Below, piece after piece: positions 35,174 to 52,919 of a stretch of 64,000 bases of DNA (the stretch's first letter is position 1; each line of letters starts with the position of its first letter). The notes under the pieces are model-generated. The model saw nothing but the letters and a program-made list of their open reading frames with translations. It searched no databases and had not been told where the DNA came from. The stretch spans positions 62,001 to 126,000 of the forward strand of contig VHBB01000001.1 in the NCBI GenBank assembly GCA_016872155.1. Reading direction: 5' to 3'. The translations under genes and the position numbers were made by a program. This DNA comes from Sphingomonadales bacterium (lineage in GTDB: Bacteria; Bacteroidota; Bacteroidia; Chitinophagales; Chitinophagaceae).

Positions 35174-35182
35174 TTATGCACA
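35174..35182 (+). other. DnaA-box-like 9-mer upstream of radA
   Basis: TTATGCACA fits the DnaA-box consensus TTATNCACA exactly. A single such 9-mer is expected about twice by chance in 64 kb on both strands, so the position in a non-coding AT-rich region is the only extra support. Confidence 0.3.
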
Positions 35183-35240
35183 AACGGCAAATTTAATTTT
35201 TAATATCACCCCCTCCTTGCTAATTTAGCAATAGAATTTA

Positions 35241-35255
35241 ATGGGTTAGTAAGTA
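35241..35255 (+). repeat. 15-nt element complementary to the candidate small RNA at 51912-51980
   Basis: ATGGGTTAGTAAGTA is the exact reverse complement of 51930-51944. It lies in the presumed radA mRNA leader, 41 bases before the ATG at 35296, and is directly followed by a GAAA-loop hairpin (35255-35282). Confidence 0.5.
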
Positions 35256-35295
35256 AAGGGTCAGTCGAAAGATTGGCCCTTTGCATTTTATAGAG

Positions 35296-36681
35296 ATGAG
35301 TAAGACTAAGAGCAGTTTTTTTTGCCAGCAATGCGGACACGAGAGTGTCAAATGGATCGGTCAATGCCCCGGTTGCGGTGCCTGGAACAGCTTTGTAGAA
35401 GAGCTGGTTCAAAAGGACAAGTCAAAAGATTTTATTGATTGGAAAGAGTTGGGAGGCGAGAAAAGAGCCGGTCGTACCACTACGCTCGATGCGGTCAAAA
35501 GCAGCGAAGAAAAAAGGATCATCACGCCCGACAGTGAACTCAACCGAGTACTTGGGGGCGGTATCGTGCCCGGCAGTTTGGTGCTGGTAGCCGGCGAACC
35601 CGGTATCGGTAAATCGACCTTATTTCTTCAAAACGGGTTAGGCATTAAAGACGCGATCGTGCTGTACATAAGTGGCGAAGAAAGCGAGCAACAGATCAAG
35701 ATGCGCGCCGATCGCCTGCAGACCAAGAACCCGCAATTCTATTTACTGACCGAGACGAACACACAGATCATCTTTCAGGAAATAAAAAAACTTAAGCCGC
35801 AATTACTGATCGTTGATTCGATCCAGACCCTGCAAACACCGCATATCGATGCCTCTCCCGGATCGATCTCACAAATCAGAGAATGTGCTGCCGAGTTTCA
35901 GCGGTTTGCGAAAGAGACGAACACGCCGGTGTTCCTGATCGGTCATATTACCAAAGAAGGTCAGATCGCAGGGCCCAAGATGCTGGAACATATGGTCGAT
36001 ACTGTATTGCAATTCGAAGGGGATCGCCATTATACGTACCGCATCTTGCGCACGCTTAAGAATCGCTTTGGGAGCACCGCCGAATTAGGAATTTACGAGA
36101 TGAATGATACGGGTATGCGGGCCGTATTGAATCCAAGCGAACTGTTGTTGACCCAAAAAGACGAGCAGCTAAGCGGTATCGCGATCGCGGCCACCATGGA
36201 GGGCATGCGTCCATTGCTAATTGAAGTGCAAGCCCTGGTTACCCCCTCGGTCTATGGCACCCCGCAGCGGACGGTGAGTGGCTTTGATCTGCGCCGACTA
36301 CAATTACTACTAGCCGTGCTAGAAAAAAGAGGCGGGTTTCAGTTCGGCACCAAGGACGTTTTCTTGAATATTGCCGGCGGACTAAAAGTAGAAGACCCTT
36401 CGATCGATCTGGCGGTGCTTTGTGCGCTGCTCTCTTCGTACGAAGATGTGGCACTTTCGCCAAGACTTTGCTTTACGGGCGAAGTGGGATTGAGTGGTGA
36501 GGTTCGGGCGGTAAACCGCATCGACCAGCGAATTGCCGAAGCGGCCAAGTTGGGATTTGAAAAAATTATCGTGTCTCGCTATAATCAAAAAGAGAGTGGT
36601 GCTAAAAAGAATACGAAGGACCGGGGTATCGAAGTGGTGACCATGGCCCGGGTAGAAGACGTTTATCGTTATTTGTTTTAA
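35296..36681 (+). CDS. radA: DNA repair protein RadA (Sms)
   Basis: RecA-like branch-migration ATPase that processes recombination intermediates and, in transformable bacteria, extends the D-loop. Starting at ATG 35296 it has 461 residues; a TTG 15 bases upstream lies in the leader hairpin and was rejected. Features: four-cysteine zinc finger CQQCGHESVKWIGQCPGCG (about residues 10-28), Walker A GEPGIGKST near 100, Walker B LLIVDSIQTL, the RadA-specific LKNRFGST near 255, and a Lon-protease-like C-terminal domain. It begins an operon-like run with comF 20 bp downstream. The leader carries the hairpin and 15-mer described separately. Confidence 0.96.
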   Translation: MSKTKSSFFCQQCGHESVKWIGQCPGCGAWNSFVEELVQKDKSKDFIDWKELGGEKRAGRTTTLDAVKSSEEKRIITPDSELNRVLGGGIVPGSLVLVAGEPGIGKSTLFLQNGLGIKDAIVLYISGEESEQQIKMRADRLQTKNPQFYLLTETNTQIIFQEIKKLKPQLLIVDSIQTLQTPHIDASPGSISQIRECAAEFQRFAKETNTPVFLIGHITKEGQIAGPKMLEHMVDTVLQFEGDRHYTYRILRTLKNRFGSTAELGIYEMNDTGMRAVLNPSELLLTQKDEQLSGIAIAATMEGMRPLLIEVQALVTPSVYGTPQRTVSGFDLRRLQLLLAVLEKRGGFQFGTKDVFLNIAGGLKVEDPSIDLAVLCALLSSYEDVALSPRLCFTGEVGLSGEVRAVNRIDQRIAEAAKLGFEKIIVSRYNQKESGAKKNTKDRGIEVVTMARVEDVYRYLF

Positions 36682-50820: not shown

Positions 50821-51771
50821 TTAGCGAAGGAGCGCCTTCAGTTTTTCCCAAAGCGAGGGAATGCGCTTAACCCAGACTAACTCTCTTCTCTTTTCGTTAA
50901 AGTCAATGGCCGGAGTACCCCAGTAGGCCTTCTGTCCATCAATAGAACTGGCCACGCCACTCTGTCCGAATACGACCGCCCCGGCCCCAATGGTCAATGT
51001 TTTATTGACCCCTACCTGCCCCCATAAGATCACTTCGTCTTCGACAGTAACAGCCCCGGCCAGTCCTACCTGTGCGGCGATCAAACAATTTTTTCCGATC
51101 ACGCAATCGTGTCCGATATGAACCTGATTATCGATCTTGGTGCCGGCCCCAATGATGGTGCTGGCCGTGACGCCTCTATCGATGGTGCAACCGGCTCCGA
51201 TCTCTACCTGATCTTCTATTTGCACAAGACCACAGCTTTTCATTTTACGATACTGATGCGTAAGCTGTTTTTTTCTGTTGTAATAGAAAGCATCACTCCC
51301 GATAACGGTACCGGCCTGTACGATTACCCCGTTTCCGAGTTGGCAGTGGTCTAAAATAGTTACCTGCGGATGTATGATACAGTTCTTTCCGATGGTTACC
51401 CGATGTCCGATATAAGCGCCGGGCATTACGATGCTCCCCTCTCCGATCACAGCGGTCTCGCTGATCGAAACAAGCGAAGGCGTAAAGGGCCGATACTTAT
51501 CTACCAACGTAAGATAGGCGGCAAAGGGATCGGCTACCACCAACAATGATTTACCGGGCGGTAGCGGCACTTCACGATCAATAATGATGCAACTAGCCGC
51601 AGAACGAAGACAAGTATCATAATATTTGGGATGATCCACAAACACCAGATCGCCGGTCTCTACCTTGTGAATTTCATTGATGCCCGTTGCATATCCATTC
51701 ATATCTCCAATAAGCGTTGCTTGCAATAGCGAGGCTACTTCTGTTAGAGAGACAGGTTTTTCAAATTGCAT
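50821..51771 (-). CDS. LpxD-like UDP-3-O-acylglucosamine N-acyltransferase
   Basis: Left-handed beta-helix acyltransferase of 316 residues. The N-terminal LpxD domain (ATLIGDMNGYATGINEIHKVETGDLVFVDHPKYYD, about 15-50) and hexapeptide repeats from 105 onward are both present, with VHIGHDCVIGKNCLIAAQVG carrying the catalytic-position His. It would add a 3-hydroxyacyl chain to the glucosamine nitrogen in lipid A synthesis. It is somewhat shorter than E. coli LpxD (341) and could be one of two LpxD-like paralogues typical of Bacteroidota, so no symbol is assigned. It diverges from the yicC region. Confidence 0.83.
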   Translation of the reverse strand: MQFEKPVSLTEVASLLQATLIGDMNGYATGINEIHKVETGDLVFVDHPKYYDTCLRSAASCIIIDREVPLPPGKSLLVVADPFAAYLTLVDKYRPFTPSLVSISETAVIGEGSIVMPGAYIGHRVTIGKNCIIHPQVTILDHCQLGNGVIVQAGTVIGSDAFYYNRKKQLTHQYRKMKSCGLVQIEDQVEIGAGCTIDRGVTASTIIGAGTKIDNQVHIGHDCVIGKNCLIAAQVGLAGAVTVEDEVILWGQVGVNKTLTIGAGAVVFGQSGVASSIDGQKAYWGTPAIDFNEKRRELVWVKRIPSLWEKLKALLR

Positions 51772-51827: not shown

Positions 51828-51858
51828 TTATCCACAGCTAATTTTAAAATGTTGATAA
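51828..51858. other. pair of inverted DnaA-box-like sequences beside an AT-rich stretch
   Basis: TTATCCACA (51828-51836, plus strand) is the canonical DnaA box. TGTTGATAA (51850-51858) is the minus-strand variant TTATCAACA. They are separated by 13 bp and followed by a tract that is nearly all A and T. This is the kind of arrangement found at origins or DnaA-controlled promoters, but two boxes are few and chance is possible. Confidence 0.4.
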
Positions 51859-51878: not shown

Positions 51879-51907
51879 TTTGATATATAAAATAAATACT
51901 AATATTG
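51879..51907 (+). promoter_or_regulatory. candidate promoter of the small RNA
   Basis: TTTG at 51879-51882 and TAATATTG at 51900-51907 (one mismatch to TAnnTTTG), 17 bp apart. The expected start point falls close to 51912-51918, at the first hairpin. Confidence 0.4.
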
Positions 51908-51929
51908 TGTAGGGAAATAAATTTCCCAG

Positions 51930-51944
51930 TACTTACTAACCCAT
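51930..51944 (+). repeat. 15-nt segment complementary to the radA leader
   Basis: TACTTACTAACCCAT is the exact reverse complement of 35241-35255. It lies in the predicted unpaired middle of the candidate small RNA, between its two hairpins, which is where a target-pairing region would be expected. Confidence 0.5.
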
Positions 51945-51953
51945 CCATATAGG

Positions 51954-51980
51954 ATCCCTCCGTTTTCGGAGGGATTTTTT
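51954..51980 (+). terminator. rho-independent terminator upstream of yicC
   Basis: ATCCCTCCG-TTTT-CGGAGGGAT forms a 9-bp perfect stem (51954-51975), followed by TTTTTT. The neighbouring gene on its left is on the opposite strand and reads away from it, so the terminator must serve a short plus-strand transcript or attenuate yicC. Confidence 0.8.
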
Positions 51981-52043: not shown

Positions 52044-52919
52044 ATGATCAAATCAATGACCGGTTTTGGAAGAGCCGAAGTGCGTGCCGGCGATAAGTTG
52101 TTGGCGATCGAACTAAAATCGCTCAATGGAAAACAGTTTGACCTGCAAGTAAAACTGCCTGCCCTGCTAAAGCCCCATGAGTTTGACATACGCCGCTTAT
52201 TGGCCACATCACTAGAAAGAGGTACCGTCGATTGTATGATCAGTCTTAAAGAGACCGGTCAATCACAGCCGGTAGCGATCAACACGCAACTGGCACGATC
52301 GTACTACCAGCCGTTAGCCTCGCTGGCAGCCGAACTGCAACTCGATACCTCGCAATTATTACCTGCCCTGCTTAAATTGCCCGAAGTCATTACTCCGGGC
52401 GCCGATGCGCTAAGCGCGACAGAATGGGAGCACTGTAAATCGGGCATTGCAAAAGCGGTAGAACAGTTGAATGCACACCGACTAACAGAGGGTAAGGCCC
52501 TCGAAGCGGACCTGTTGGGCCGAATCGATGCGATCGTCGCGTTACAAAAAGAGATCAGCGAGCTGGAGCCAAAGCGAAGAGAAAAGCTTCGCCAAGGACT
52601 GGTCAGATTGCTCGAAGACAATCTGGGCAAAGAGGGATACGATCGCAACCGGCTAGAGCAAGAGCTCATCTATTACATAGAGAAAATGGACATTAGTGAA
52701 GAACAGGTACGACTTCTGAACCACTGCGACTACTTTATACAACAGCTACAGGAGCCCGGAGACAGCAAAGGGAAAAAGCTATCGTTTATCTTACAAGAGA
52801 TCGGTCGCGAGATCAATACGACCGGCTCGAAGGCCAACGATGCAGCTATTCAGCAACGGGTAGTGCGCATGAAAGACGAGCTCGAAAAAGCCAAGGAGCA
52901 AATTTTAAATGTGATGTAA
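52044..52919 (+). CDS. YicC family endoribonuclease-like protein
   Basis: Protein of 291 residues of the YicC/YloC family, members of which are RNA endonucleases. It begins with the hallmark MIKSMTGFGRAE. The C-terminal DUF1732 portion contains EEQVRLLNHCDYFIQQL and KGKKLSFILQEIGREINTTGSKANDAAIQQRVVRMKDELEKAKEQ, with the conserved Glu/His/Arg residues. ATG 52044 was chosen because it starts the hallmark; the frame extends upstream only through the terminator region. gmk, often adjacent, is not present here; gldH follows 9 bp later. Confidence 0.92.
   Translation: MIKSMTGFGRAEVRAGDKLLAIELKSLNGKQFDLQVKLPALLKPHEFDIRRLLATSLERGTVDCMISLKETGQSQPVAINTQLARSYYQPLASLAAELQLDTSQLLPALLKLPEVITPGADALSATEWEHCKSGIAKAVEQLNAHRLTEGKALEADLLGRIDAIVALQKEISELEPKRREKLRQGLVRLLEDNLGKEGYDRNRLEQELIYYIEKMDISEEQVRLLNHCDYFIQQLQEPGDSKGKKLSFILQEIGREINTTGSKANDAAIQQRVVRMKDELEKAKEQILNVM

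Follow-up and report, generated by a model that had tools for sequence, protein, structure and literature searches.

Does the intergenic region between lpxD and a yicC/yloC-family gene encode a free-standing small RNA or the leader RNA of yicC, and with which transcripts might such an RNA interact? The window, i.e. the whole stretch of 64,000 nt analyzed here, corresponds to positions 62001-126000 of contig C1 of a draft genome. The two genes, both identified with NCBIfam, are located there at 50821-51771 (lpxD, minus strand) and 52044-52919 (yicC/yloC family, plus strand), and the original prediction had left both possibilities standing for the RNA candidate lying between them.

Predicted structure of the sRNA1 locus

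The candidate RNA, referred to below as sRNA1, would extend over about 69 nt (51912-51980, plus strand), its start being set from the promoter and its end from the terminator. The putative promoter consists of a -33-type TTTG element (51879-51882) and a -7-type element, TAATATTG (51900-51907), both on the plus strand and separated by a 17-nt spacer; the Bacteroidota promoter consensus is TTTG / TANNTTTG. The promoter-like boxes announced ahead of the candidate are present in this form, and TAATATTG is exactly conserved in all 32 loci picked by overall DNA similarity. The transcript would comprise a 6-bp 5' hairpin, GGGAAA-UAAA-UUUCCC (51912-51927), an unpaired middle (51928-51950) including an exposed core, UACUUACUAACCCAU (51930-51944), which is complementary to an RNA predicted upstream of radA, and a 12-bp intrinsic terminator hairpin followed by U (51951-51978, the strong terminator having previously been placed at 51954-51980), all on the plus strand. 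The folding energy of 51911-51980 amounts to -25.5 kcal/mol, as compared with -14.45 (SD 2.87) in shuffled sequences (z = -3.85), and none of the 200 shuffles folded as well, which agrees with the small-RNA shape originally proposed (a 5' hairpin, an unpaired middle and a 3' terminator). As had also been stated, no plus-strand gene ends shortly before sRNA1, lpxD being on the opposite strand. The numbers of terminator-like sites (6 vs. 3.5, SD 1.7, in shuffles) and promoter-like sites (3 vs. 3.6) in the region are unremarkable in themselves, and it is because of its conservation that the locus stands out above chance.

Distribution and covariation of sRNA1

sRNA1 occurs in nearly the whole of a family of soil and freshwater bacteria, which the names of related entries identify as the Chitinophagaceae. 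In a DNA search on 58 genomes, matches at E <= 1e-12 were obtained in 34 of the 35 labelled as belonging to the same genus or as the genome itself, most of the same-genus matches stopping at the sRNA1 terminator, while the 23 genomes of other families gave short, weak matches at best (top E 3.8e-4). In the alignment of 32 loci, which includes that of the window and was assembled on the basis of overall DNA similarity, not of any motif, GTACTTACTAACCC and the core are exact in all 32 loci and TACTTACTAACCCAT in 31. A pattern scan of named genomes yielded at least 117 listed loci, mostly from Chitinophagaceae, the genera including Chitinophaga, Niabella, Niastella, Ferruginibacter, Sediminibacterium, Hydrotalea, and Terrimonas. 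Since the scan pattern fixed 21 bases, conservation within the pattern is not evidence: across 104 sequences, the core forms 15 invariant columns, of which 13 were imposed by the pattern itself. The core is altered in the genus g43 and in a few other cases.

The covariation analysis on homologous loci, which had been put forward as a check, showed that both helices of sRNA1 covary and that the hairpins are conserved in relatives. In 100 model-aligned sequences (96 distinct), 96.3% of the cells are paired, and changes on both sides occur, in some sequences, at 15 of the 16 pairs and at 10 of the 10 terminator pairs. The double-change cells number 331, vs. 90.8 in shuffles (none of 500 as high), and when the partner was slid by one column, pairing fell to 62.8-69.9%. 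RNAalifold returned 0 pairs from a plain MAFFT alignment, owing to helices that were out of register in it. A structure-guided model was used instead of this alignment; the pair counts it gives lean towards the structure supplied, and the slid controls fall sharply.

With the first model, 173 of the 396 genomes of the order matched at E <= 0.1, the top match outside the family having an E value of 1.8e-5. The second covariance model matched 279 of the 294 family genomes at E <= 0.01, and 89 of the 92 genera. Among 296 genomes of the class, 41 matched, and every match with E < 1e-10 belongs to Chitinophagaceae, the top match outside the family (E 2.1e-7) resembling a chance match on inspection. 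Distant homologs outside the family seem improbable among the class-level matches inspected: these lack TAATATTG along with the exact core and resemble chance 3'-end terminators, two of them sharing parts of the core.

Some loci depart from the usual arrangement. In several divergent genera (loci L401, L404, L405, L407, L411, and L416), inspection by eye places the core in the loop of an AGGAU...AUCCU stem, which replaces the separate 5' hairpin downstream of the same TAATATTG promoter. Two entries titled Sphingomonadales and Sphingobacterium thalpophilum (L179 and L087) carry the sRNA1 locus beside a similar lpxD, and their titles may be wrong. The draft genome G012, which shows about 4% contamination and may be a mixed bin, contains two copies of the locus (contigs C131 and C395).

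Neighbors of sRNA1 and the possibility of a yicC leader

The divergent lpxD lies within 1.5 kb of sRNA1 in 106 of the 117 loci listed, and in 89 of the 91 loci with at least 1.5 kb of upstream sequence; in the remaining two, it is located at 1561 nt in one case and is absent from 2.3 kb in the other. The yicC gene, which adjoins sRNA1 in the window without being a constant partner, is found at most 1.5 kb downstream in 59 of the 117 loci listed, or, when the count is restricted to the 94 loci where 1.8 kb or more of sequence follows, in 50. That sRNA1 might be the leader or an attenuator of yicC was suggested by its position in the window, on the same strand as yicC and just upstream of it, but since lpxD is a near-constant neighbor while yicC is present in about half of the loci, constant linkage fails; the leader RNA half of the original prediction was rejected on these counts, and we consider that there is hardly any chance of its being correct. 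The other half has gained in strength: the conserved promoter, the covarying hairpin and terminator, the family-wide occurrence and the independence from the downstream gene give good support to the prediction that the locus encodes a free-standing intergenic small RNA with its own putative promoter.

Occurrence of sites complementary to the core

The exact 15-nt complement of the core, AUGGGUUAGUAAGUA, is located at 35241-35255 on the plus strand, upstream of radA and inside the same window, 16.7 kb from sRNA1. In an antisense search of the 1.79-Mb genome, the 13-nt sequence GGGTTAGTAAGTA was found at exactly two places, sRNA1 and window positions 35243-35255, the chance expectation for a 13-nt complement being arithmetically about 0.05; at radA, the match extends to 15 nt, ATGGGTTAGTAAGTA (35241-35255). 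When up to two mismatches were allowed, the core complement occurred at 25 places in this genome (reversed control, 27). Apart from the two exact places, there are 23 with two mismatches each, and as judged by eye, no terminator follows any of these in the adjoining bases. In G000, no site other than that of radA was found. The duplex predicted between sRNA1 and the radA leader has an energy of -22.7 kcal/mol, vs. a median of -7.2 and a best value of -21.7 for 3000 random 61-mers from the contig, a sample which may include true sites; since random 61-mers reach -21.7, the duplex energy does not by itself single out the radA site.

In 78 genomes of the family, the 12-mer complement was found 186 times, the genomes' own sRNA1 included, vs. 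58 times for the reversed control. The 93 places which were fetched and classified, intended as lying outside sRNA1 (three of them proved to be sRNA1), comprise 43 upstream of radA, nine after recA, four after bacilliredoxin genes, one at the end of an rpoD-type gene and 36 others. A terminator hairpin starts within 25 nt of the site in 67 of the 93 places, vs. 21 of 1576 control positions; for the opposite orientation, with sRNA1 copies left out, the figure is 4 of 93. The copies associated with recA and bacilliredoxin genes lie just 5' of the terminators in some lineages. In the rpoD-type case, where the gene scores under the NCBIfam cut-offs for RpoD, the site overlaps the stop codon. The 26 places at which no terminator was detected include several which lie in reading frames and resemble chance occurrences.

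In divergent lineages (loci L311, L406, L412, L441, L455, and L480), the same site was also observed in a third short RNA-like element, not classed as radA-linked. This element reads ...CTTACGATGGGTTAGTAAGT (CTAACGAT in L441), with TATTTG upstream in five of the six loci and a terminator detected in five of the six.

The short RNA upstream of radA

The complementary site belongs to a second putative short RNA, sRNA2, which would end at a terminator upstream of radA. Its predicted extent is 35232-35289 (plus strand; the model match covers 35232-35294), both ends being deduced from the sequence. It follows a -7-type element, TAATTTAG (35221-35228), and includes a covarying terminator-like hairpin (35253-35284), the lowest pairs of which overlap the end of the site; radA (sms), encoding a DNA repair protein (NCBIfam TIGR00416), comes next at 35296-36681, all these features being on the plus strand. 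The window and 23 other radA loci can be aligned without gaps from a TTATTCACA-like box via TTTTG and TAATTTAG to GAATTTAATGGGTTAGTAAGTA (24 of 24), after which come the hairpin and a T-run. These 23 loci were found by means of the 12-mer, and what counts as evidence is the sequence outside it, such as GAATTTAAT, which precedes the 12-mer in all 24 loci. In a model-fitted alignment of 60 sequences, 96.7% of the cells of the hairpin are paired, all 13 pairs show changes on both sides, and the double-change cells amount to 148, vs. 30.3 in shuffles. The RNA looks non-coding; in the window, the part of the site at 35241-35249 reads ATG-GGT-TAG, i.e. a start, one codon and a stop.

The position of this RNA raises the question of whether sRNA1 regulates radA in trans by attenuation, binding the nascent leader before the terminator and altering read-through. 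In the window, where 11 nt separate the hairpin from the radA ATG, and more generally in the 9 of 58 loci in which the gap between the terminator (T-run) and the start of radA is 40 nt or less, radA has to be read through the terminator or transcribed from elsewhere, in view of the short gap, and the fact that the site directly abuts the hairpin is also what such a mechanism would lead one to expect. The median gap over the 58 loci is 114 nt, however, and inspection of the leader by eye showed no element that could sequester the terminator's 5' arm. In addition, a promoter-like TAnnTTTA/G element lies within 20 nt of the start in 35 of the 44 loci where radA begins more than 90 nt past the site, which suggests that radA has a separate promoter. 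Over the whole set, this element lies within 20 nt of the predicted radA start in 39 of 58 loci (L293, L305, and L308 among them; a count made without a control), suggesting a separate promoter with a very short 5'UTR, and control of radA itself is consequently not implied. An antiterminator formed by pairing of the site with the 3' arm of the terminator was set aside, since it was judged by eye to be weaker than the terminator. We therefore regard attenuation of radA as a possible but rather doubtful general mechanism; it may apply to short-gap species such as that of the window. Judging from the same features, sRNA2 is in our view an independent short RNA in most cases and would serve as a leader in some species.

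Variation of the core and the site

The relationship between the core and the radA site was examined in a hand-picked set of 30 genomes with odd or weak signals; these genomes cluster by genus, and 29 of them have radA. In the 450 nt upstream of radA, a site agreeing at 13 or more of 16 positions is present in 15 of the 19 genomes with a match to the sRNA1 model, the sRNA1 sequence itself being seen in all but eight of these 19 (G250, G386, and G436 are among the places not showing it), and in 1 of the 10 genomes with no match or an altered core. Among the genomes with a match, the site is absent from the 450 nt examined in G425, where the core ends in CCCCU, in G068 and in G250, and the upstream region of radA is cut by the contig end in G437.

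In the genus g43, the core reads CUUACUAACACAU in all six genomes and the four radA leaders examined all lack the site. In one of these genomes, G319, the recA 3'UTR carries TGTGTTAGTAAGTAT just before the terminator, which matches the altered core; of the six genomes, G319 is the only one in which such a compensated recA site was detected, and two other extra matches in the genus resemble chance. In G429, a C-to-U change leaves a G-U pair, which is energetically somewhat less favorable, and in G461 and G464, the pairing extends into a GAAUUU stretch.

These observations also bear on whether the shared 15-nt sequence might be the DNA- or RNA-binding site of a protein, in which case the two RNAs would never meet. 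Near-invariance on both sides would be equally expected in this case, and the permutation tests comparing native with non-native pairs of sRNA1 and radA site were not significant, either in 36 genomes (1709 of 20,000 permutations as good) or in 14 diverse lineages (1890 of 20,000); both core and site hardly vary. Against a protein-binding site stand the matched change in G319, the G-U pair in G429 and the extended pairing in G461 and G464, all of which favor pairing, as well as the strict orientation: of 93 places, 67 have GGGTTAGTAAG positioned 5' of a terminator, vs. four in the opposite orientation once sRNA1 copies are left out, and sRNA1 carries the complement, whereas a DNA site would not need any particular orientation. 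A site of this kind seems improbable to us, and RNA-RNA pairing is preferred because of the exact complementarity, the strict orientation, the terminator context and the single compensated site.

DnaA-box-like elements upstream of both RNAs

Two DnaA-box-like sequences, TTATCCACA (51828-51836, plus strand) and its inverted partner TTATCAACA (51850-51858, minus strand), are located upstream of the sRNA1 promoter, and another, TTATGCACA (35174-35182, plus strand), upstream of that of sRNA2. Within 110 nt upstream of the -7 element, the motif TTWTNMACA was found in all 117 sRNA1 loci listed, vs. 7.5 in shuffles, mostly at -49 (94 occurrences) and -71 (48). For the radA-type upstream RNAs, the count is 34 of 51 (shuffles, 2.5), with positions from -45 to -47. 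The strict form TTATNCACA occurs in 91 of the 117 sRNA1 loci listed (1.1 in shuffles) and in 19 of 51 sRNA2 promoters (0.3), and these forms correspond to the DnaA box consensus. In the sRNA1 set, the variable position of the box shows all four bases, and some of the loose matches (TTTTAAACA, 18) probably reflect AT-rich sequence only. A common regulator of both RNAs thus seems likely from the shared element, and we infer that this regulator may be DnaA.

The inverted pairs have a start-to-start spacing of 22 in 58 cases over the 117 loci listed, and one may ask whether the locus is mainly a DNA site, used for DnaA titration or resembling an origin, the transcript being incidental. The regular spacing of the pair speaks for this, but the helices of the RNA covary, which a DNA function alone does not require, and there is no clear GC-skew switch at the locus, dnaA lies on another contig and a cluster of boxes elsewhere looks more origin-like, so that a mere DNA site at this place is very improbable in our opinion. 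The densest cluster of DnaA-box-like sequences on the contig lies outside the window, in a long intergenic stretch (C1:273487-273872; L074 13487-13872), which is likely to be the replication origin; the possibility of an origin at sRNA1 itself was discarded, the skew, the location of dnaA and this better candidate all being unfavorable to it.

Proposed interaction between the two RNAs

The analysis shows two conserved, structured RNA genes with an exactly complementary stretch, the site being placed next to terminators, and with upstream boxes common to both. We infer that both RNAs are transcribed and that they probably pair in the cell and regulate each other. The reading we favor, with reasonable though by no means full confidence, is that sRNA1 acts in trans by pairing with the RNA upstream of radA and with the 3' ends of repair mRNAs, mutual sequestration being the likeliest outcome. 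sRNA1 would be made from its own promoter, and its exposed core would form a duplex of about 15 nt with the site exposed in sRNA2. The direction of control would then be reciprocal: the two RNAs, produced from promoters with the same DnaA-box-like element, would titrate each other, and whichever remained free might set the stability or the read-through of repair-gene transcripts with the site in their 3' end or leader. In some lineages, the core might also pair with the sites lying 5' of the recA and bacilliredoxin mRNA terminators, and in one case with that at the end of the rpoD-type gene, lineage-specific copies of the site in 3' ends thus drawing recA and other mRNAs into the same net.

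A more far-reaching proposal, which we make tentatively and with more doubt than confidence, is that this complementary pair, with both members switched by DnaA (or by another factor acting at the same site), may link the replication status to the expression of radA and recA across most of the family, and that copies of the site in terminator-flanking 3'UTRs may have been recruited gene by gene as the lineages evolved. If the boxes do bind DnaA, there would be a route from replication control to the repair genes through RNA. Independently of this, two unlinked RNA genes, one of which adjoins a DNA-repair gene, have remained perfectly matched over about 15 nt in many genera and have the same kind of promoter element. 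The pair would amount to a concrete RNA circuit in which the sites are named, the partners are predicted and natural variants exist, the latter being the altered core in one genus and the few genomes with no sign of either RNA.

Comparison with known systems

Little is known, as far as we are aware, about the small RNAs of Bacteroidota and the targets of these RNAs. Intergenic small RNAs such as GibS occur in Bacteroides thetaiotaomicron. sRNA1 resembles these in being an intergenic small RNA of the same phylum and differs in that no Rfam 15 family reached the threshold in the window or in 15 loci of relatives; at a permissive threshold, 10 weak matches were obtained (lowest E 0.074), all under the gathering scores. 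No report of either RNA was found among the papers listed in searches of the open-licence PMC literature, nor by a term search within PMC2864571.

ChiZ/IspZ-type sponges and CcnA appear to be the nearest in kind. According to PMC7815308, ChiZ and IspZ of E. coli are 5'UTR-derived sponge RNAs of small RNAs, the function of which was characterized by experiment. They are short RNAs from the 5' regions of genes, and sRNA2, upstream of radA, has the same shape; E. coli, however, belongs to another phylum, and for sRNA2 a sponge role would be suggested by its complementarity. Unlike ChiZ and IspZ as described there, sRNA1 and sRNA2 form a pair that persists in most members of a family, the cores being nearly invariant and an upstream box being common to both. 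CcnA of Caulobacter crescentus, according to PMC8959179, is located at the origin, is presumed to be activated by CtrA and is reported to interact with mRNAs. This non-coding RNA is tied to cell-cycle and replication control, as sRNA1 might be, but CcnA lies at the origin, whereas sRNA1, with its DnaA-box-like elements, is not located at any apparent origin. Rfp18 of Flavobacterium, as presented in PMC9723704, is a conserved small RNA with predicted trans targets including proteases and a predicted pairing region in its third stem-loop. It resembles sRNA1 in its conservation, its phylum and its predicted trans targets, and it can be set apart by its description, since it comes from another family and sRNA1 consists of two hairpins and a single exposed core.
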